From: a virus
Virus record (IMG/VR): IMGVR_UViG_3300028557_000201
Location: 1-22,977 of that record
Strand: one strand, 5' to 3'
DNA length: 22,977 nucleotides
The notes beneath the pieces are model-generated. The model did no database searches, was not told the origin of the DNA, and was given only the letters and a program-made list of their open reading frames with translations. Both the position numbers and the translations under genes were made by a program. This document shows positions 6,496-22,350 of the stretch, one piece after another. Position 1 is the first letter of the stretch; each line of letters starts with the position of its first letter.

Positions 6496-9400
6496 GTGAG
6501 TATAGGTAACCGTCAACAAACTTTACAATACGCCCGTCCTACATTAATCACTACTTCTTTGAGTGATGTAGACGCTCCCTTTTCTTATCAGGACTGGTAT
6601 AGATCCCATAGTGGTATAATACCAGGACAGGAATATAAACAATACAACGAATACCTTGTAGAATGGTATAAAGATAAAAGTAGACAAGTTACGGATCAAA
6701 AATTACAAATAAAACTTAACTATCTTACTCTTTTAAAACAATTACAAATATTTTTTTCAAACGAAGAGATTGAAAACTGGTATAATAATGTAAATGTAGA
6801 AGATGAAAAAGAGCTTCTTTTAGCTATTCCTTATTTTGCAAGAAAATTAAAAGAGATTTCTCTTTATTATTTTAAATTAAGAGAGTCAGTTAAACAGTCT
6901 AAATTAAAATATAACTTGGCTGGTTCCAACTTTGGTATTACTCAAGAGCTTCAAAAGTTCATTTTACTCAATTATACTCAAAAGCCTAGCGACGCTATTT
7001 CTCTTCCTGCTTCGATTTGGAAAAACGTGCCTGAATTAAGCTCTATTAAGGATACTATAGGTATTCAAATTGAAGAACTTTATGATTCGCAAAACTACTT
7101 AGATCACTCTTCTACTGTCCCAGTTTCAGCATACTATGATCTTACAAATACCGATTTAGCTAACTTTTTAAGTACTAAGAATCTCAATCTAACATCTACT
7201 GATTGGGTTTATAAGTTAGGTATTTACCCACTATCTGCAGACTATCTATATTTGTCTGGCGGAGATTTAACTGAGTTAAGTTTAGATCTTTCAGAAAAAT
7301 ATCTCGGCGGAGACATTTATACTTCTTTTAGCTCTCAGCCAAGCACCCAGGCCGATTTTTATACTTTAGATATTGAACAAGGTAGTAATTCGTTTTTCTG
7401 GCCTTACGGTGTTTATAATACCTATGCAAAAACGTTACCTATCTATGAGCCTGTAGCTCTAAGTAGCTTAGATTTTTCAACCTTTGGTACAGCAGGCTCA
7501 AGTTTAGAAAATGCCGATACAATTTTTGTAAAAACAACCAGAGGCACACAAGGAGCCTGGTTAAGAAGACCCGAGATAAATTATCAAGATGTAAATATGC
7601 TTGCTGAACTTCAGGCATCTAGCAAAACCGCATTTATTTTCCCATATCCGGGTTATGGGCTGTCTGCAGAAGATATTGAATGGACTGGTTATGAACTAGT
7701 TTCAGACCCTAGATACTCATTTTTAGAGACAAGGTTACAGCAAGCAATACAAGAAGCATACTGGTCAAATCAGACTGAACTTACTGCAACAAAAATAACA
7801 AAAATTAATGATACAACTTTAACAGATAATAAGGCTTATCCAAATAGTAATTTTAGTCAAGCTGATAAAATACGTATTTGGTCAGTACCACCCAACTATA
7901 CTGACGGTAGTTTTTCCGGTGAACAAAAAGAAGCGTGGCTTTATCGTTTTAATAAGACTGATATATCTGTAAAAGCTAATAGTGATAGTACAATTGTTTG
8001 GCCGTACGAAAAAATAGACCCGACTCAAGACTATCCAAATTATTATCCGGAAAATATATCTAATATCTGTACCCCTCTATTAGTCTCAGATATTGATTTT
8101 ATTCATGCAACTGCCGGAGATGCTTTATCAAGTGCTGATGTTATTTACAAATTAACAAATTATAAAGATACAATTGAAGATGCCACCGAGTGCTGTTGGT
8201 TATCAGGTAAACCTCTACTGATACCAGGAAGTAATATTATAGCCACTCAACAACCCAGTTTTCAAGGTCTTTTTAAATCTGGTACTTATAACCGCTTTAT
8301 TTGGAACGGACCAAATAATACAGATGCTAATACAGTATTTCGCTCAATAAACCACCAGCCTGATTGTAAATTTGCATCTACACCAAATACCTCTTATACA
8401 GACTTTAACTTATGTACTTGTAACTCGGTGTTGTTCACCCCTCTTGGTCACCCAGGTAATACATATACTGATAATCAGTCATTTACTGATTTTATTATAC
8501 AAGATGACAGCACAGCTTCTAATATAGATTTAACCTCTTGGACCGATCAAACAGGTACAACATATCTAACAAGTTCTGATTTTGCTTGGTTTAAAACTAA
8601 TACTAAAATTGGTTGGGGGGACGGTAAATGGTATTCAGGCAGTAATAAGTTTGGTAATAACCTATTATTACAAAACGGAAAACAATATATATATTTTAGA
8701 ACAAGTATTCGTACAAAAGATAAAGAAGAGGTTATATTGCCTGATTTAATTGCTCGGTATAGTATTCAGCCATCAACTAATAGTAACTTTAGTTGGATAA
8801 AAGCAACAAAGTCAGTTGGAGATACCACTACTACATGGGTTAACTCTAACGAACCTTCTAATATGGTTTTAACCCCTGGAGATATTTTAATATACTCTCG
8901 AAAAGAAACATCTTCATACTCTTTAACTAGCGCAGAGCTACAACCTATAGATGTTTCAGAAAATAGAGGGTCTATCTGGACAAGCTTTGATTATATTTCG
9001 ATTGGCCCAGATAAAAATTTTGTACTCAGTTATCCTTATGAAACATATACTGATCCTGCTGCTTTAAATGCTGCTAACCCAGCTTATCCACAATACCCTG
9101 CTTTAAATTTAAATAGTAATATAGTATCCATTTTACAATGGTCCTTATCTGCCCCCGGGCAACCTTTACAGTATTTTAAAGATCAGCCTAGTATTTTAAT
9201 AACCCCGACTCTTTCTGGTCTTTACACTTTTGCGGTTACAGCATTATCAGCTAGGATTGAAATATCAGGTGGAACCTTTTATTATGCAAATACCGGTTAC
9301 TACACATTCACCAACATACCACCTGTAACTGCTATACCTAATGTAGGGTTAGTTCAATCATTAACTGGCTATAATACACCGGTACCCGGATTTGTTCTTA

Positions 9401-11631
9401 ATACCCCTTTAAAGGGGTGGGACTACAACCGAGGTGTTGCCACTCAATATACTAATCCCCGTTTTGCCGGAGCTAGACCTTTTTGGGCTAAGACTTATCT
9501 AGATAAAGATCTAGCTACAGAATATAAAGGTATTGAATCCTGGGGAACACCTTTACGTTTAGTAGACGATCATAACGTTGTTTCTCAGCCTGAAATATCT
9601 GATATAGAGCTTGAGACCGGTACCCGTGTTGAATATACCCGAAATTATCCAACCCGAGTGTATTGGAATCAACCCATACAGCTTCAAGCTATTGATCAAT
9701 CTAGTAAATGGTGCACCCTTAACTTTAATACCACAAGTACTGCCAACATAGCGTCTCTTTTAAACAATAGTAATGTTGAATTAGTAGTAACCCCTACAAC
9801 CGCTACCAGTAATTTAGTATTAGAAAACCTAGTAGACAATCAACCAGTAGAAGTTAGTTATAATGCTTTAAACTCCTTTACCTGGAATATTACTGCAGTA
9901 CCACAAATAACAACAACCTCTTACAGAGATATATCGGCTAATTTAGCTATACAAGCATCAGCACCTTGGGCTAATTTAACCAATCAAAACTTTCCAACTG
10001 TAGCAGCATTCCCATACGTTGGAGACAATCTTTACAGTGTTCAAGATTCAGGCGGTTACTCAACTCCAAATAATTTAGGTGCTACCGTTTATGTAGATAA
10101 AGACTACACAACATCTCTAAACCTTACCTCAGAAACACTTCTTCAATACTTTCAAGATAAAAATAAACGGGTAGATGGTAGAGGTTTAGCTAAACAAGAT
10201 ATACCAACACCGTATACAGAAATATTAGAAAATAATATTTGGTTAAAAGAACCTATTGTAGCTGGACCAATAGCGGGGATTATTAAAAAGAGTGTATTTA
10301 AAAAATATCAAAAATTTTTACCGTACCAGTCCGGCATTGAAACAAATAGTAGATTAAAGATCGGACTTTTAACCCCTGTATCCCGTCAATCTCCATGGAC
10401 TGGTAAAGAGGACTCAACTTGGGGAGATATTGCTAACAAGCCAACTACATTTACAGGGGAAGTAGATGTTGAAAAATGGGCACAGTCTCAAGTATTAAAA
10501 CAAAATAATCTCCAGGTTGATAATTGGGTAACTGACGTTTATGGCAACCAGTACGGCCTTTATAAAGATATAAGAAATATTCCGTCTGTAAACCGTAAAG
10601 AGGTTTTAGGAGAAGTCTGGGTAAGAGACAACGCTCAGCATGTAAGACCAGCTTATATATCTCTATCAGCAGTATTTGATACCTATACTAATACAAACCT
10701 AATAAATGAATTAACCGGTATTAACGGTATTAAAAAAATAGATGTCTTCTTTGATACTCTTTTTGTTCAGACAACCGGTTCTGCTATTTTTGAAAAATTA
10801 AGTTATAATTATGATACTGATAATATCTTTAGTATTTCTGATAATGCTAGATATATTTCCCTGGCAATGCCAGTTTCTACATCCTTTATTCGAGAATTTG
10901 CTAACACTAACTTTTCAGGTTATACATTTGCGAAGGCTGGGGAAACTTGGTTTTTCCCTCAAGAAAAAATAGTTGTTATTTCAGTATGTGGTTATAAGGA
11001 TAATACACTAACACCAGAGCTTTATAGTTATGACCTCAATAGCTTAACACTTAAAAAGATTTTTCCTGTAACATCGGGAGATATAAACACCTTACAGAGT
11101 CTGTCAAGTGTAAGTTTATCTTCTATTAACGAACCTCTACTTTCCCATAATACATTTAAAAGAGAATATCTTTTTGTAATTTCCGGAAAAGGTAATAATA
11201 GCGAAGATATTTTAATAGAAATTAATATTAAAGATTTACCACAGCTTGAACTTGATATAATAAGTATATACTCATCTCTATCAAGTAGTACTATTTTTGA
11301 GCCACCAGCCATACTTCACGATCTCAGTGTGACCCTTGAAGGGGTAGAACAGACTGAAGTTCTTACTATTAGTGGTAACAACCCACTAGTAACTATCGCA
11401 GGAGAAGAAATAGTAGCAATTGTAACTCTCGATACACTTAATTTTCAATGCACAGCAACCAGCGCACCAGTTACATACACCCCCGTGTCTCTACCTTCTT
11501 GGGTAACCTTATCAGAAACAGGGCTCTTTGAAGGTACCCCTCCATTACTCGCAAGTACTTATTTAGCAACATTTACTGTAAATAACGCTATAGGCCCTAC
11601 CTATTACTCTTTAAATATTACCGTTCGATGA
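6496..11631 (+). CDS. Very large baseplate/tail structural protein with helical N-terminus and C-terminal Ig-like domain
   Basis: At 1711 aa this is the largest protein in the window. Translation appears to start at GTG (MSIGNRQQ), 5 nt after the previous stop and 6 nt after a TAAATA element. Residues about 30-170 are charged and helical (for example EWYKDKSRQVTDQ, then paired helices 'IPYFARKLKEISLYYFKLRE'), unlike the beta-rich remainder. This is the most conserved-looking part and is probably the anchor. Residues 170-1600 are Ser/Thr/Asn/Tyr-rich beta structure with no domain that I can name. The last about 65 residues (LPSWVTLSETGLFEGTPP, then TYLATFTVNN and a final strand) match the putative Ig-like He_PIG pattern. 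The stop codon overlaps the next ATG by 4 nt. Its position after gp25, gp6 and the 1354-aa protein suggests a peripheral baseplate wedge or gp7/gp10-like role, but that is positional inference only. Confidence 0.7.
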   Translation: MSIGNRQQTLQYARPTLITTSLSDVDAPFSYQDWYRSHSGIIPGQEYKQYNEYLVEWYKDKSRQVTDQKLQIKLNYLTLLKQLQIFFSNEEIENWYNNVNVEDEKELLLAIPYFARKLKEISLYYFKLRESVKQSKLKYNLAGSNFGITQELQKFILLNYTQKPSDAISLPASIWKNVPELSSIKDTIGIQIEELYDSQNYLDHSSTVPVSAYYDLTNTDLANFLSTKNLNLTSTDWVYKLGIYPLSADYLYLSGGDLTELSLDLSEKYLGGDIYTSFSSQPSTQADFYTLDIEQGSNSFFWPYGVYNTYAKTLPIYEPVALSSLDFSTFGTAGSSLENADTIFVKTTRGTQGAWLRRPEINYQDVNMLAELQASSKTAFIFPYPGYGLSAEDIEWTGYELVSDPRYSFLETRLQQAIQEAYWSNQTELTATKITKINDTTLTDNKAYPNSNFSQADKIRIWSVPPNYTDGSFSGEQKEAWLYRFNKTDISVKANSDSTIVWPYEKIDPTQDYPNYYPENISNICTPLLVSDIDFIHATAGDALSSADVIYKLTNYKDTIEDATECCWLSGKPLLIPGSNIIATQQPSFQGLFKSGTYNRFIWNGPNNTDANTVFRSINHQPDCKFASTPNTSYTDFNLCTCNSVLFTPLGHPGNTYTDNQSFTDFIIQDDSTASNIDLTSWTDQTGTTYLTSSDFAWFKTNTKIGWGDGKWYSGSNKFGNNLLLQNGKQYIYFRTSIRTKDKEEVILPDLIARYSIQPSTNSNFSWIKATKSVGDTTTTWVNSNEPSNMVLTPGDILIYSRKETSSYSLTSAELQPIDVSENRGSIWTSFDYISIGPDKNFVLSYPYETYTDPAALNAANPAYPQYPALNLNSNIVSILQWSLSAPGQPLQYFKDQPSILITPTLSGLYTFAVTALSARIEISGGTFYYANTGYYTFTNIPPVTAIPNVGLVQSLTGYNTPVPGFVLNTPLKGWDYNRGVATQYTNPRFAGARPFWAKTYLDKDLATEYKGIESWGTPLRLVDDHNVVSQPEISDIELETGTRVEYTRNYPTRVYWNQPIQLQAIDQSSKWCTLNFNTTSTANIASLLNNSNVELVVTPTTATSNLVLENLVDNQPVEVSYNALNSFTWNITAVPQITTTSYRDISANLAIQASAPWANLTNQNFPTVAAFPYVGDNLYSVQDSGGYSTPNNLGATVYVDKDYTTSLNLTSETLLQYFQDKNKRVDGRGLAKQDIPTPYTEILENNIWLKEPIVAGPIAGIIKKSVFKKYQKFLPYQSGIETNSRLKIGLLTPVSRQSPWTGKEDSTWGDIANKPTTFTGEVDVEKWAQSQVLKQNNLQVDNWVTDVYGNQYGLYKDIRNIPSVNRKEVLGEVWVRDNAQHVRPAYISLSAVFDTYTNTNLINELTGINGIKKIDVFFDTLFVQTTGSAIFEKLSYNYDTDNIFSISDNARYISLAMPVSTSFIREFANTNFSGYTFAKAGETWFFPQEKIVVISVCGYKDNTLTPELYSYDLNSLTLKKIFPVTSGDINTLQSLSSVSLSSINEPLLSHNTFKREYLFVISGKGNNSEDILIEINIKDLPQLELDIISIYSSLSSSTIFEPPAILHDLSVTLEGVEQTEVLTISGNNPLVTIAGEEIVAIVTLDTLNFQCTATSAPVTYTPVSLPSWVTLSETGLFEGTPPLLASTYLATFTVNNAIGPTYYSLNITVR
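11612..11627 (+). promoter_or_regulatory. T4-late-type promoter candidate inside the end of the 1711-aa gene
   Basis: TAAATATTAC begins at 11612, placing TAAATA at 11612-11617, 10 nt before the ATG at 11628. The same ten bases occur before the gene at 17511. Because it lies inside coding sequence (the Leu-Asn-Ile-Thr codons) chance is harder to exclude, and the 4-nt gene overlap would also allow translational coupling. Confidence 0.35.
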
Positions 11632-13103
11632 ATACAAATTTTGTAATTTATAATGCTGAAACAGTACCAAGTAATTATTCTTGGGATAACGGTTTGCCCT
11701 TTGAGGGTATTAATACTGCTAATGCTTATGCAACAACAGGCTACACCTCTGGCTATGCACCAGGCCTCAAGGTGTTATTTTATAATAGAGAGTCTCAATC
11801 TGATTTTGGGTTTGATGAAATTAGTTATAACTGGGATTTCGGAGATTACTATAATGATACGAATAATAATATTTCTTTGTCTTGTATATCCTTAGTAGAA
11901 CATACTTATATAATGCCAGGTATTTACACCGTATCTTTAAGACATATACAGTCAAGAAGGAGAACAAACTTAGACCCAAGCGTAGAGGCAAGACTTTGTT
12001 TAGGTAAATATGATGTTAATTGGTATTGGAGTAATTTAGAGTGTGGTAAGTTACAGCAAGCAACTTGGGATCAAACAATGTGTGTACCTCCATCATCTGT
12101 TACTTCCCCAAGACCTAAATGGTGGGATAGTGAAACACAGTGCTTTCAAAGGTATTGTAAGTTTTGGTCCTGGTATGATCTAGCAAATTACTCTGATAGC
12201 GCAAACCCGATACGCTGGAGTGAAACTATTACCGATGCAGATTTTGAAAAACTTTGGATGTTTGAAAATAATGAAACAAATTGTACAGCTATTAGGGCAC
12301 AATTTTTAGATACAGTTGAGGTAAAGGAGCAAAATGCAATATTACCACTATGTGTAGAGGTAATAGAGTTACCCCCTGTTGCAGAAATATCGTGTACTAC
12401 AACACCTGTCGGTACTACCCCCCATACAGTAACTCTTTCCCCAACAGGGTGCCAACCCGGCTCTTTTCCTATAGATCGTATTGATTGGGATCTCGGTGAC
12501 GGAACACCTGTATTTACTCATACTAGGTATACACCTCCCTCCGGTAACAATATACATTACAATGGTAAATACCCTTCAGATATAAACGATGTTCGTAACT
12601 ATGATATTATTCATACCTATGTAAGAGATGCTAAAAGCTACCCTGTGTTTTATCCCTCTCTTACCTGTTATAGCGCCAATACAAATACTAAGGATTCATG
12701 CTCTACAACTGTTGGACCTATTTCTCTACCTAACTTATCAAATATAGTTCTAGTTAAAGCTCGCAATACAGTAAGAGGTAATCTTTATGCTTTTGATATT
12801 AATAACAGTTTAGCATTTACAACTACTACTCCTACGACTGGAGAGTCATTAATACCTTTAATACCTAAAGATCGCTTATTAACAACCTCAACTACAACTA
12901 ACCCATATTTCGGTAACCCTAACAATAATCTATATCCACCAATCTACACCCCTAGCTGTCAGTTACTATCATCTGACTTTTTACCAACTACAGATATTAT
13001 AACAACTGAAGACAACAATCCAAACGACAAGGATGGGCAAATCAACCCCGGAGAAGACGGTATACCAATTATAACAGACTTAAATTTTTATATTGAACCA
13101 TAA
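11628..13103 (+). CDS. PKD-domain virion protein with Cys/Trp-rich module
   Basis: The 491-aa protein overlaps the preceding stop by ATGA. A first PKD domain lies at about 45-105 (NWDFGDYY at 68-75, EHTY at 91-94, then the YTVSL strand). Residues 124-245 form a Cys/Trp-rich module, with CFQRYCKFWSW at 172-182 and several WxW and WW pairs. A matching module is found in the 907-aa protein. A second, longer PKD domain spans about 250-362 (DWDLGDGTP at 286-294, HTY at 329-331) and has extra Cys. The C-terminal tail includes NDKDGQINPGED (466-477), similar to a dockerin or EF-type calcium loop but lacking the first ligand. PKD domains usually mediate protein or carbohydrate contacts at surfaces. 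A role as a baseplate-attached adhesin or spacer is inferred; the exact function is unknown. Confidence 0.75.
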   Translation: MNTNFVIYNAETVPSNYSWDNGLPFEGINTANAYATTGYTSGYAPGLKVLFYNRESQSDFGFDEISYNWDFGDYYNDTNNNISLSCISLVEHTYIMPGIYTVSLRHIQSRRRTNLDPSVEARLCLGKYDVNWYWSNLECGKLQQATWDQTMCVPPSSVTSPRPKWWDSETQCFQRYCKFWSWYDLANYSDSANPIRWSETITDADFEKLWMFENNETNCTAIRAQFLDTVEVKEQNAILPLCVEVIELPPVAEISCTTTPVGTTPHTVTLSPTGCQPGSFPIDRIDWDLGDGTPVFTHTRYTPPSGNNIHYNGKYPSDINDVRNYDIIHTYVRDAKSYPVFYPSLTCYSANTNTKDSCSTTVGPISLPNLSNIVLVKARNTVRGNLYAFDINNSLAFTTTTPTTGESLIPLIPKDRLLTTSTTTNPYFGNPNNNLYPPIYTPSCQLLSSDFLPTTDIITTEDNNPNDKDGQINPGEDGIPIITDLNFYIEP

Positions 13104-17510: not shown

Positions 17511-20234
17511 ATGTCCTTATCTGCTATTCCTAACAATTTTAATCCGGGGGCTACACCTACAGTATTTTTGCCAGTAGACGGTAGAGAGGCCTTATTTGTT
17601 GCTTCTATTCAAGCCGGACTTTCCGGTTCTTTACCTATTGAGAGATGTTTTGATAAATATGGTATTTTGTGGAAGTGGTCTACTTTTGAGTTGTCAGCTA
17701 TAGCTCCCGGACTATCAGCTATACCTCTTAGTTCAACTAGAACTCCTTACCCTTCTTCATGGGCTACGGTTGGTTGTTTAGGGCTATCCGGAAATCCAGG
17801 ATCAGGGTCAAGCTATATAAATTCAACACCGGGAGGTTTTCCTAAAAAATGGAGAAACGAAGGCGCTCTATCTGCTGAATTTTTTAGCCCTGTAACCGCT
17901 TCGTGTGCAGCAGATAAAATAACCTGGACTCTTTCAGCCACTAACTGGTCTCAAATACATACAGAAGTAAATTATATTTCAGCAACAACAGATTTTATCT
18001 ATAGTTTAAAATTTGAAGACTACGGAACTGAATATAATAAGATTAATATTTATCAAGATACTCTTGTAACTGTTAGAGCTCAAGTAACAGGTACGTGTTG
18101 TGATTTACAGTCCGATCCCATAAGCTGTGTGCCGGCTTTTATCGACGAATCATACACCTTTAAAGTAATTGCACCACCTCTTGTAAAACTTTATACACCA
18201 AATAGGTACAATCTTACAGGTGTTAATATTAATTTTGAAAATCTTATTACTAATACAGCTTATATTACTGCTTTAAGAATTGATTTAGATGATAGTAAAG
18301 AAATATTTTTAACTGGTAGTAATATTACAAATTCCATTAGTGTTAGTTATGATATTTTAGGTTTTAAAACATTAAGGGTAACTTCTTATTTAAATTATAC
18401 AGATATTCCTTACACAGTAACTCTGCCGGACATTATAGAGATAGTTAAAGAATATGATACGGTTTCTTCAAGAGAATATCGCTCTGTTTTAACTCCAATT
18501 GTATTGCCTTGGCCTGATCAACCAAAAGTAGGTATTAATGATTGGGCAGTTGAGGACAACATTAATAACTGTTTTGAAAAATTCTCTGAAAATCTTGAAT
18601 ATCTTGAATCCCGAGGACGGGCATACACAGGCACTTTTTCAGATTATTTTGGCTACCTCGGTGCTCAGCCTAATATTTTGGTTACCGGGGTAACTGGTTG
18701 CCCGGTTTGGACTTGGGCTGATTTAGATTGCTTTAATACAACTCTTCCTTACTCAGTAACTTGGAGAGACGTTTATATTCCCCCAACATCAGCTACTGAT
18801 CCAGGTTCAATAGGTGAGTGGGTTGATTGTGGTACTTGGATTGACTTAGATTGCCGTAATGCATTCTTTAACCCTAATTGTAGACAAAAATATTGTGTTG
18901 ATTGGAACTGGAAGGCTAGAAAAAGAGCTAATTCAACAAGTACGTTCGAGACAACTTGGCAATCTTCAGTATCAGGAGGACTGTATCAAAAACGCTGGTA
19001 TTACGAACCTTGTGAGGAATCTCGAGTTGTTGTTTGTGATGAAGGGGTCTGGAACGTCAATTTACCAAATTTAGACACCTTTTATGACCCGATACCCTCC
19101 CCGGCTATACAACAACGATGCACATTTACTGGGGTAGTTTCAAAGCAAAATAAACTTTATACATCTCTAAAGACAATTATTAAACTTCTTGACTCAGACT
19201 ATACCGCTACTTATTATAGTAATAGAGACTCTTTTGATGGGGTGTTAGCGTTTTCTAATATTAAAAACATATGCATGGATTCTTCTGATAAAATCTATGT
19301 AATTGATAATATTTTATCTCAAGTAGCAGTTTACACTTACGAGCCAGATACTTCTGGAGATGACTGGGTATTATTTACAAGCTGGGGAGGATTTGGAACT
19401 ACAGCTTCAACTAATAAGTTTTCAAACCCTAATGACATACATATAGATCAGTTTGATGATGTATGGGTAACCGATACCGGGAACGGCTGCATTAAGCATT
19501 ATTCAAACACTGGAACATGGCTTAACACTATAACCGATGATGAACTTAAAATAACTACCCCTCTCTCGGTCGCTGTAGATAGTCAAAAGATGGTTCATGT
19601 ACTAACAAATAAAGAGATTCGAGTCTATAGTTACGAAGGCGTTTATAAGCAAAGTTATTCATACACTGAGTTTACAACTTCAAATGCACCAGTTAAAATT
19701 AATACTTCATATAATAGAGAAATAATTTACCTAGCGCTTGAAACTCAAGTTCTTAAATTCTTTAGAAACGGGGTGTTTGCCGGTTATATAATTCAAGAAA
19801 AAGAAAACTTACCAACTATTACAAGCTTGTATCAGGATGAGTATAGAAATTTATTAATAACAGCTGGAGATAAAATTTTAAAATACCCTGACTTAATGAC
19901 ACAAAAGCTTCTTAAAGGCTCTCTACCTTCTAATTACTGGTCATTACAGGATATCCTTATCAACAAAGATGAATATGTACAGAACTGGGTTTATACAAAA
20001 GCATTTCAAAGAATGTGGGATAATATAGAAACCTTTCGAAACACTTTACTATTTGACGAAGCTTATCCTTGCAAGTCATATAAACCACCTTTACACGGAA
20101 AAGAGAAGATGATTATTGGTCAAAACGAAATTGTAACCTCAACAGTTATTAACCGGGTTGTAAGATACCTTTGGGAAAACTTTGAAACTCTTATTGATTA
20201 CTTCGATCCGAGTTGTGAATCAACAACTCTCTAA
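17511..20234 (+). CDS. Large virion protein with Cys/Trp-rich module and NHL-like propeller
   Basis: The 907-aa product has a Gly/Ser/Pro-rich beta N-terminal half. Residues about 45-215 contain many Cys and Trp (CCDLQ at 196-200), and residues 220-310 resemble an Ig/PKD-type beta-sandwich. A Cys/Trp-rich module at 397-501 (CPVWTWADLDC, later CRQKYCVDWNW at 457-467) matches that of the 491-aa protein. Residues about 540-795 form an NHL-like propeller, with blades marked by IYVIDN (595-600), VWVTDTGNGCIKHY (651-664) and VHVLTNKEIRVYSYEG (695-710). The C-terminal about 100 residues are helical (NWVYTKAFQRMWDNIETFRN, then GQNEIVTSTVINRVVRYLWENFETLIDYF), a likely anchor into the baseplate or a partner. 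No signal peptide is seen. It is a single-gene unit downstream of the LamG-like gene and upstream of the small fibres. Function is inferred as peripheral baseplate or adhesion. Confidence 0.72.
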   Translation: MSLSAIPNNFNPGATPTVFLPVDGREALFVASIQAGLSGSLPIERCFDKYGILWKWSTFELSAIAPGLSAIPLSSTRTPYPSSWATVGCLGLSGNPGSGSSYINSTPGGFPKKWRNEGALSAEFFSPVTASCAADKITWTLSATNWSQIHTEVNYISATTDFIYSLKFEDYGTEYNKINIYQDTLVTVRAQVTGTCCDLQSDPISCVPAFIDESYTFKVIAPPLVKLYTPNRYNLTGVNINFENLITNTAYITALRIDLDDSKEIFLTGSNITNSISVSYDILGFKTLRVTSYLNYTDIPYTVTLPDIIEIVKEYDTVSSREYRSVLTPIVLPWPDQPKVGINDWAVEDNINNCFEKFSENLEYLESRGRAYTGTFSDYFGYLGAQPNILVTGVTGCPVWTWADLDCFNTTLPYSVTWRDVYIPPTSATDPGSIGEWVDCGTWIDLDCRNAFFNPNCRQKYCVDWNWKARKRANSTSTFETTWQSSVSGGLYQKRWYYEPCEESRVVVCDEGVWNVNLPNLDTFYDPIPSPAIQQRCTFTGVVSKQNKLYTSLKTIIKLLDSDYTATYYSNRDSFDGVLAFSNIKNICMDSSDKIYVIDNILSQVAVYTYEPDTSGDDWVLFTSWGGFGTTASTNKFSNPNDIHIDQFDDVWVTDTGNGCIKHYSNTGTWLNTITDDELKITTPLSVAVDSQKMVHVLTNKEIRVYSYEGVYKQSYSYTEFTTSNAPVKINTSYNREIIYLALETQVLKFFRNGVFAGYIIQEKENLPTITSLYQDEYRNLLITAGDKILKYPDLMTQKLLKGSLPSNYWSLQDILINKDEYVQNWVYTKAFQRMWDNIETFRNTLLFDEAYPCKSYKPPLHGKEKMIIGQNEIVTSTVINRVVRYLWENFETLIDYFDPSCESTTL

Positions 20235-20250: not shown

Positions 20251-20778
20251 ATGTCTTGTCTAGGTGTTTCAATAATCCAATCAAACGAATGTATCGGTAA
20301 TTCTCTCTTTACAATAAGAGACAACTTTACAAAATTAGAAGGAGGTATCTGTGATAATATTAATACAATTACAGAAATAGAAGGTAATATTACAAATCTT
20401 ACAAACCAGCTTAATGCTCTATCCGGTCTAGTAACACCTGGTGCTGCTAAGGCTTGGGTAGTTTTTGATGCTACTAGAGAAGCAAATACAGGTACTGTAA
20501 ACCCTCTCGGTAATAGGTTAATTCGTAACAGTTATAATGTTTCTTCAGTTTTAAAGTATTCCACTGATCCCGGGTTATTTGAAGTAACCTTCACAACATC
20601 GCTTGCAAACACTAATTACGGGGTTATAGCAACGTGCAGTGAAAAGGCAGCCAGTAGTGGCAATTTTGTTTGGGCTCAACCTAGTCTAAGAGACCCAAGT
20701 TCCGTCCGACTTTATATAAGATCTATTACAGCTTCAGAAGTAGCAGACCCCGAATATGTTTCTGTTATAGTAATATAA
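20251..20778 (+). CDS. Small tail fibre protein with shared N-terminal Cys anchor
   Basis: This 175-aa protein starts with a motif shared with the next two genes: NECIGNSLFTIRDNFTKLE at residues 12-30. A short heptad-like stretch follows (about 31-60: ICDNINTITEIEGNITNLTNQLNALSG), consistent with a trimeric coiled coil. Residues about 68-175 form a beta-rich head that begins KAWVVFD, continues with SYNVSSV and a 'G.FEVTFTTSLANTNY' strand, ends in PEYVSVIVI, and resembles receptor-binding tips of phage fibres. The next gene repeats this layout, suggesting duplication. The assignment as a fibre is from layout and family resemblance; receptor and attachment site are unknown. Confidence 0.78.
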   Translation: MSCLGVSIIQSNECIGNSLFTIRDNFTKLEGGICDNINTITEIEGNITNLTNQLNALSGLVTPGAAKAWVVFDATREANTGTVNPLGNRLIRNSYNVSSVLKYSTDPGLFEVTFTTSLANTNYGVIATCSEKAASSGNFVWAQPSLRDPSSVRLYIRSITASEVADPEYVSVIVI

Positions 20779-20781
20779 GTT

Positions 20782-21276
20782 ATGAGTATCTGTGATCTGC
20801 CAAATGCTATAACCACCATTGATTTAGATGAATGTGTCGGAACATCTTTGGCTACTATCAATACAAATTTCTTAAAATTGCAGCAACAAGCCTGTGAAGA
20901 TAGTGCAGAGCTGTCTCGGCTAACTCAAGATTTATTAGCTCTTAGTTCGAGCTATTTAGAATTGTCAGCAAAAGCAGCTGGTATACCAAAAGCATGGATT
21001 GTCTTTAATGGTGTAACCCCGACAGTATCTGCTTCTTATAATATGTCTGTTTCGAGTTTAGGTATAGGACAATATGCTGTAACTTTTGGAACCGCTTTCC
21101 CGAGTCTCTGTTATGCACTAGTAGGCAGTTCAAGCTCTACAGCAGCAAGCCCTTTTTATACCTGGTTACAGCCTACAACAGCCTTTACTCCTGCGTCTGC
21201 TACTATAAATATACATGATCTATCTGGAACATTTGTAAACCCAGAATATATATCATTAGCAGTATATTACAAATAA
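20782..21276 (+). CDS. Small tail fibre protein, paralogue of the preceding gene
   Basis: The 164-aa protein repeats the layout of the gene before it. Its N-terminus has DECVGTSLATINTNFLKLQ (about 16-34), then a helical stretch (about 35-65, DSAELSRLTQDLLALSSSYLEL). A head starts with KAWIVFN, then SYNMSVSSL, 'GQYAVTFGTAF', an F-x-W-x-QP strand and NPEYISLAVYYK at the end. The shared order KAW-VF, SYN-SV, Y-VTF, W-QP and PEY-S shows common origin with the 175-aa protein, although the sequences have diverged well. It is 3 nt behind the preceding gene and has no promoter-like element or Shine-Dalgarno. A second receptor-binding fibre or hetero-partner is inferred. Confidence 0.78.
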   Translation: MSICDLPNAITTIDLDECVGTSLATINTNFLKLQQQACEDSAELSRLTQDLLALSSSYLELSAKAAGIPKAWIVFNGVTPTVSASYNMSVSSLGIGQYAVTFGTAFPSLCYALVGSSSSTAASPFYTWLQPTTAFTPASATINIHDLSGTFVNPEYISLAVYYK

Positions 21277-21279
21277 ATT

Positions 21280-22350
21280 ATGGCACGAGTACATACAACA
21301 GCATTTAATGAAACAGACTGTATTGGGGACTGTTATGAACCTATTAATAACAGTTTAGATAATCTTGATACAGCTGTTCAGAATATATCAGGCAATGTTA
21401 CCGAGCTATTAGGAGGTATTCATAATATTATGAATATTCGTATGTCATTAAGTAACACAACAGCAATTACTACAACGGATATTAAAAGCGCCACTAATTT
21501 ATATATTCATCCATACAACGGTGCTGTAGTTTCGTTATGGAATACAACAATAAACAGATGGGAACTTAAACAATTTTCTTCTATTATAACAGTAAGTTTA
21601 TCTTCTTTAGCAGCTAATATGAATTATGATATTTATTTACATTTTAGTTCTGGTAGTTTTCAAGTTGAATTTGTAGCTTGGGCAAGTCAAGTTGCAGGTG
21701 CAACGCCTCCAACTACCGGTTCTCAAAATGGTATATTAGTTAAATCGGGGGAACCAAATAAAAGACTTATTGGTTGTTTAAGAACTACTAATAATCCCGG
21801 ACAAACTGAAGTAAGTTTCGGAAGAGTAGCTGCCGTCGGAGGAAGTCATCCAAAATTATTTGTTTGGAATCTTTATAACCAGCATCCTGCATCATTTTCA
21901 ATTTTAGAAACTGGAACAGTTAATGGGTGGGGTACTAGTATTAACGGTTGGACATCAACAGCTGCCGGCGCAACTGCAGCTACAAACGGACCGTTTGAAA
22001 AATTTGGAGGAGTTAATAATAAAATTAGTTTTATTTCCCGAACCCCACAAGTAGTTAATTTAAATACAACCAATTTTGTTAAAAATGCTATACCGTTTTA
22101 TTTTGCCTACTCATTAAATCAGGAAACACCAACTGTATCCCAGTATTTTTCTCAAACACCAGGTATACCTATTTTTGAAGCAGGCACAGGAGGATTAGCT
22201 GTTGTACCAGCTTATACAAATACAATAGCTCCAGGGTATCATTATTTACAATTAGTATCAATGACATACACCGGACAGACTCAAGTTTACATACCCTGGA
22301 CAGGGGATAGACACTCCTATGGAACTACCGGTACTTTAATTACATATTAA
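21280..22350 (+). CDS. Tail fibre / receptor-binding protein with shared N-terminal anchor
   Basis: The 356-aa protein shares the N-terminal motif of the previous two genes (TDCIGDCYEPINNSLDNLD, residues about 12-30), followed by a short helical linker. The rest differs. Residues about 55-130 are beta-rich. Residues about 148-200 contain NGILVKSGEPNKRLIGCLRTT then GQTEVSFG and FVWNLYNQ, a motif set I know from fibre and tailspike proteins of other phages (an LGT-RTT segment followed by a VWNxYN segment). The C-terminal about 100 residues end in a Gly/Tyr/Trp-rich strand (YIPWTGDRHSYGTTG). It is 3 nt behind the previous gene and closes the unit. A different receptor-binding head on the same anchor is the simplest reading. 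Confidence 0.8.
   Translation: MARVHTTAFNETDCIGDCYEPINNSLDNLDTAVQNISGNVTELLGGIHNIMNIRMSLSNTTAITTTDIKSATNLYIHPYNGAVVSLWNTTINRWELKQFSSIITVSLSSLAANMNYDIYLHFSSGSFQVEFVAWASQVAGATPPTTGSQNGILVKSGEPNKRLIGCLRTTNNPGQTEVSFGRVAAVGGSHPKLFVWNLYNQHPASFSILETGTVNGWGTSINGWTSTAAGATAATNGPFEKFGGVNNKISFISRTPQVVNLNTTNFVKNAIPFYFAYSLNQETPTVSQYFSQTPGIPIFEAGTGGLAVVPAYTNTIAPGYHYLQLVSMTYTGQTQVYIPWTGDRHSYGTTGTLITY

Follow-up and report, generated by a model that had tools for sequence, protein, structure and literature searches.

A tryptophan/cysteine repeat of ~42 residues, present in two tail proteins from an uncultured lineage of T4-like phages, appears to be undescribed

Two tail proteins encoded in the window (the 22,977-nt stretch of viral DNA analyzed here, positions 1 to 22,977 of IMG/VR record IMGVR_UViG_3300028557_000201) have in common a Trp/Cys repeat of ~42 residues that appears to constitute an undescribed family. 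These are protein A (491 aa, nt 11628-13103) and protein B (907 aa, nt 17511-20234); their features are given below in window coordinates and lie on the + strand. The best overall explanation, adopted tentatively and at somewhat less than an even chance of being right, is that the repeat is inserted in tail scaffolds and displayed as accessory adhesion domains with optional disulfides. The surrounding gene cluster holds gp25-like and gp6-like baseplate wedge genes, a Gp53-like fiber C-terminus and a Laminin_G_3 protein, and gp23 is present on related contigs; the phage is therefore taken to be T4-like and contractile. A photosystem gene, which might have hinted at the host, is absent from 12 longer contigs.

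The unit signature is C-x2-K-[YH]-x3-W-x-W-x2-L ... TW-x2-T ... K-x-W-x2-E, and the consensus of the aligned A and B relatives, gathered from viral contigs, is CLGKYCIEWKWDNLKCNSSTNNPVTWDQTKCSGTYPKKWDYE. There are two classes of unit, designated KYx and KYC. Among 149 distinct copies, W11 and W26 are present in every one, W9 in 145 (three of the remaining four are gaps) and W39 in all that are long enough to include position 39; these four Trp are near-invariant, and K4 and K37 are frequent. C1 is found wherever copies cover position 1, and is near-universal; copies 2 and 3 in contigs L078-L081 lack it. The initial annotation had proposed to look for a cluster of Cys and had listed PP-x-S among the shared motifs. 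A Cys cluster is not supported as the defining trait: the near-invariant residues are the four Trp, and the Cys other than C1 come and go. PP-x-S is missing from most homologues.

Searching the window's proteins with the unit HMM locates two units in A: unit 1, of KYx type (residues 124-169, nt 11997-12134, CLGKYDVNWYWSNLECGKLQQATWDQTMCVPPSSVTSPRPKWWDSE, iE = 2.7e-16), and unit 2, of KYC type (residues 172-213, nt 12141-12266, CFQRYCKFWSWYDLANYSDSANPIRWSETITDADFEKLWMFE, iE = 8.1e-16). In B there are an N-terminal unit of KYx type (residues 46-117, nt 17646-17861, iE = 5.2e-13), a half unit that matches HMM positions 6-30 (residues 397-422, nt 18699-18776, CPVWTWADLDCFNTTLPYSVTWRDVY, iE = 2e-7) and a unit of KYC type (residues 457-499, nt 18879-19007, CRQKYCVDWNWKARKRANSTSTFETTWQSSVSGGLYQKRWYYE, iE = 7.9e-13). 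No other protein of the window contains a credible unit in this search. What had been annotated as a single module, spanning A 124-219 (nt 11997-12284) and B 397-501 (nt 18699-19013), does link A to B, with its motifs where they had been placed (the stated start, nt 11999, falls on the last base of codon 124, within 2 nt). It is really made of tandem copies of the smaller unit, as the cross-recognition of held-out profiles described below indicates, and a further copy in B, at 46-117, had been overlooked.

Several results establish that the A and B modules are homologous. In BLASTP, A 132-213 pairs with B 400-499 at 27% identity (E = 8e-6). The local score, 103, lies above all 5000 values obtained by shuffling the B module (mean 36.5, sd 7.1, maximum 80) and above those of 1000 shuffles of the whole of B (maximum 79); the resemblance originally noted therefore stands, and scores better than shuffled Cys/Trp-rich sequence. 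Individual units behave likewise: A unit 1 against B 46-117 scores 65 and A unit 2 against B 457-499 scores 67, neither equaled in 2000 shuffles. A unit 1 against A unit 2 scores 31, a value reached by 202 of 2000 shuffles and not significant. Finally, when four held-out profile classes (A first, A second, B KYx and B KYC) are compared, hhalign assigns every pair a probability of 97.8-99.4%, and each profile finds essentially all members of the other three classes, far above shuffled decoys. It is solely from these sequence profiles that the two units of A appear as kin. Units are kept at the corresponding place across some 30 diverged contigs.

In A, the repeat is an insertion in a PKD domain. 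Residues 42-105 match PKD_4 (E = 5.6e-10, 39.6 bits, cut-off 27) and PKD (E = 4.9e-8, 33.3 bits, cut-off 23.5), so that the scaffold, residues 42-112 together with 229-250, passes the curated Pfam cut-off. AlphaFold2 builds residues 1-112 and 229-250 with high confidence as a PKD β-sandwich (confident strands at pLDDT 80-96) and 113-228 with low confidence; the best Foldseek matches are the PKD domains 2y72, 4aqo and 1wgo (probability 0.97-0.99, at an E of only 0.02-0.03). Strand F (residues 98-112, nt 11919-11963, pLDDT ~90 to residue 110) is the last scaffold strand ahead of the insert and aligns ungapped with unit-less homologues; the scaffold resumes in strand G (residues 229-246, nt 12312-12365, CVEVIELPPVA, pLDDT 91-94 from residue 231). 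The units of A are thus an insertion in the F-G hairpin, outside the PKD fold, and a second domain follows. The 1711-aa protein encoded just upstream (nt 6496-11631, GTG start, its gene overlapping that of A by 4 nt) has no match in Pfam, PHROGs or NCBIfam.

Protein B is organized differently: its N-terminal unit is followed by a beta-rich region, the 1.5-unit middle module, an NHL-like propeller (residues 637-664 match NHL at E = 0.0045, below the Pfam cut-off) and a C-terminus that is conserved in the family alignment, the middle module lying ahead of the propeller. In contig L183 (2-1798 and 1779-3686, +), B is seemingly split into two ORFs with units in both halves; it seems likewise split in contigs G015 and G018, into overlapping or adjacent ORFs, again with units in both. 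Downstream of B in the window (nt 20251-22350), three consecutive small proteins of 175, 164 and 356 aa begin with similar leader sequences that contain a Cys (NECIGNSL, DECVGTSL and DCIGDCYEPINNSL), perhaps a common attachment peptide.

A unit-profile search of 58 whole contigs places nearly all copies in A or B. The two exceptions are instructive. Contig L335, of 217 kb, encodes a 251-aa stand-alone protein with three tandem units (7306-8061, +; BLASTP E = 5e-9 to A and 2e-6 to B), located 38 kb away from A and B in a cluster of small fiber-type ORFs, with the gp23 capsid gene nearby. It is followed by small ORFs that resemble the 175- and 164-aa proteins of the window and have similar leaders. 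In contig L336 (162-4565, -), one low-scoring unit (residues 687-738, 22.6 bits) lies between propeller segments of a protein homologous to the 1354-aa PKD/propeller protein of the window, within a ~350-aa stretch that is missing between residues 893 and 907 of the window protein. The stand-alone array and the L336 copy make it most likely that the unit is a domain in its own right.

Nature also supplies the empty sites. In L075 and L076, the A homologue keeps this PKD domain but has a short hairpin and zero units (YTVSLNLNQTKQTT...NQIVELKEVPPVA; also given as HLYTMPGVYTVSLNLNQTKQTT...NQIVELKEVPPVA). An A tree built without the module columns places both among lineages that have two units. In the B proteins of an outgroup (L089 and L092-L094), the B profile skips from ~393-399 to 515-518, which leaves out the middle module, and matches start only past the N-terminal unit. 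The number of units ranges from 0 to 3 in A and from 0 to 5 in B, and the A tree requires at least eight copy-number changes. Units have been gained, duplicated and lost without disturbing the scaffolds. In L076 (13434-17960, +), three consecutive stretches at the N-terminus match the B profile, which suggests duplication of a unit-bearing block: the unit plus ~290 aa is apparently repeated ~3 times. In this phage, the units of A have been lost. Module and scaffolds diverge at about equal rates (mean pairwise identity 0.40 vs 0.43 and 0.50; correlation 0.77 and 0.61), and this parallel divergence leaves frequent swapping of modules between phages unsupported.

Accessory domains on baseplate and fiber parts often bind host glycans. 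The preferred adhesion reading supposes that each unit is a small autonomous domain with the Trp set as its core, and that units sit on exposed loops in the baseplate/fiber apparatus, where they would contact the host envelope. Glycans would be the likeliest target, bound through exposed aromatic side chains, and the units would add avidity to the true receptor-binding fibers. That a domain which is inserted, repeated, dispensable and Trp-rich should bind host glycans is inferred, by analogy. Against adhesion, the module, diverging as it does at about the scaffold rate, is unlike a hypervariable receptor-binding tip, and its tempo fits a structural role as well; the invariant Trp could, moreover, all be buried.

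The main alternative, which is rather unlikely, is a structural one: the units would staple A, B and neighboring baseplate/fiber subunits together through Trp stacking and disulfides. Besides the evolution of the module in step with its scaffold, what speaks for such ties is that loci holding both proteins have units in A and B jointly or in neither, save L075, L076 and L085, which have them in B alone (none has them in A alone). A disulfide network in a contractile tail also has a precedent (PMC10811340). Against this, the A proteins of L075 and L076 are unit-less while their B proteins keep 3-5; the entire outgroup lacks units in A and B; and the stand-alone three-unit protein sits 38 kb from both. 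A required joint is unlikely, given that units are lost so freely, and their joint absence is weak as co-occurrence because it falls largely in one clade.

It is less likely still that the unit belongs, as a highly diverged member, to a known family of small carbohydrate-binding or Ig-like domains and has escaped recognition because the structural model is poor. In the models, pLDDT is 43-61 per ten-residue block in the A module (mostly 45-60) and 28-45 in the B units, so fold comparison of the module is uninformative. Foldseek searches of the PDB and BFVD found PKD-type domains only, because the AlphaFold2 models provided scaffolds and not units. Trp-rich short domains do occur in chitin- and cellulose-binding modules. 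However, the weak elements that AlphaFold2 assigns to A unit 2 (strands at 171-173 and 178-180, helices at 182-186 and 197-200) do not suggest an all-beta sandwich, and sequence searches for a known family come back empty. Pfam yields no convincing match for the unit, only weak single-member matches to unrelated families; PHROGs yields none either (best E 0.05, with no consistent family); the PDB has no match to profiles A1 and A6 at E ≤ 10; and NCBIfam and PADLOC have none over the module. By sequence, the unit belongs to no known carbohydrate-binding module family in Pfam or the PDB. This bears out the judgment in the initial annotation that the module is not a known family. Against 50,697 phage records, the unit consensus gives only chance-level E values of 5-7, A and B are without a match at 0.01, and an outgroup B has none either. 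The DNA pattern for C-x2-KYC-x2-W-x-W was scanned over cellular genomes and viral contigs; among the matches listed, which cover 2.0 Mb of viral and genome stretches, there is no convincing unit outside homologues of A and B. Full-text searches of the literature found nothing on Trp/Cys-rich repeats of phage tails, and precedents solely for PKD or Ig-like domains on them.

Metal binding or late disulfides had both been raised for the cysteines at the outset; the pattern of loss favors a probable pairwise bond over a Zn/Fe site. C6 and C31 are mutually exclusive: 4 of the 115 full units carry both (Fisher p = 8e-12, relatedness ignored). Units with C6 are followed by a post-unit Cys within ten residues in 54 of 56 cases and slightly beyond in the other two. 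The KYC-position units without C6 (A of L060; B of L023, L025 and L038; B of L055) are also without a nearby post-unit Cys, while the unit and its C1 are retained, and the pair has been lost jointly in at least three lineages. Such co-loss suggests an optional bonded pair rather than a four-Cys metal site. In the window, the proposed partners, identified by co-presence and co-absence, are Cys177 (unit position 6) and Cys219 (nt 12282-12284) in A and, by a similar pattern of co-loss, Cys462 and Cys501 (nt 19011-19013) in B. Under the adhesion reading, the optional pairs would be C6 and a Cys 2-12 residues past the unit in KYC copies and perhaps C1 and C31 in KYx copies, oxidizing to disulfides after the virion exits the reducing cytoplasm. 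Pairing inside the A module is incomplete in some homologues, where the number of its Cys is odd (e.g., L038, L047 and L051). That the conserved Cys hold zinc or an iron-sulfur cluster is improbable. C124, C172, C177 and C219 are invariant in the A-family alignment and a Cys-rich protein made in a reducing cytoplasm is a natural candidate for metal; but many units have just one or two Cys, C31, C16 and C6 are each missing from at least half of the copies, C6 and the post-unit Cys vanish as a pair while the unit and C1 stay, and copies 2 and 3 in L078-L081 dispense with C1. As C6, C16, C31 and the post-unit Cys all vary, the family has no fixed set of about four Cys/His ligands, and the metal site was dropped as the leading reading. 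Chance resemblance between two Cys/Trp-rich stretches, suggested by their biased composition and by the non-significant alignment of A's two units with each other, is ruled out for practical purposes by the composition-preserving shuffles, the held-out profiles and the ~30 diverged contigs.

A bolder version of the adhesion reading is possible, though doubtful: a phage-restricted four-Trp mini-domain would serve as a cassette moving between non-homologous virion proteins of one T4-like lineage (the PKD protein, the NHL-propeller protein and the stand-alone array), would constitute an unrecognized class of host-surface adhesin, and would form its disulfides only after release. Whatever its function, an unannotated viral stretch now defines a repeat family, with a signature, ~149 distinct copies, a stand-alone version and sites that are naturally empty, and its units illustrate the way in which small domains are acquired by virion scaffolds at exposed hairpins. 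If binding to the host surface is true, the unit offers a new and compact means of approaching attachment in those T4-like phages that are without a cultured member in the records searched.

Small domains that decorate tail proteins are of a known kind. In Bacillus myophages, carbohydrate-binding modules on the baseplate are found in one phage and missing from the homologue, and binding to cells was shown for one wedge protein (PMC11406892). Modules of the Vp4 Gp119 type resemble the present units in being accessory baseplate domains, present or absent between homologues, beside PKD-bearing and wedge proteins; they were recognized by fold similarity to carbohydrate-binding module structures (PMC11406892), whereas the unit of the window is ~42 aa long and Trp/Cys-based, matches no such module in Pfam or the PDB, and is a putative binder. 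The BACON repeats of crAss-like phages, thought to aid host binding, are likewise tandem, variable in number and borne by tail-associated proteins (PMC6949934); BACON is a known domain that occurs in bacteria too, whereas the virion proteins of a single uncultured T4-like lineage are the only place where the unit was found. With PKD and Ig-like virion domains the relation is one of host and guest: the scaffold of A is itself PKD, and the Cys/Trp units are an insert in its F-G hairpin that some homologues lack. The contractile tail of phage Milano contains a disulfide network (PMC10811340) and is a precedent for such bonds in a tail of this type that is put together in the cytoplasm; other proteins are involved, and the disulfides of the window are suggested by Cys co-loss only. 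The kind of decoration is thus familiar; the domain family that provides it here appears to be new to description.
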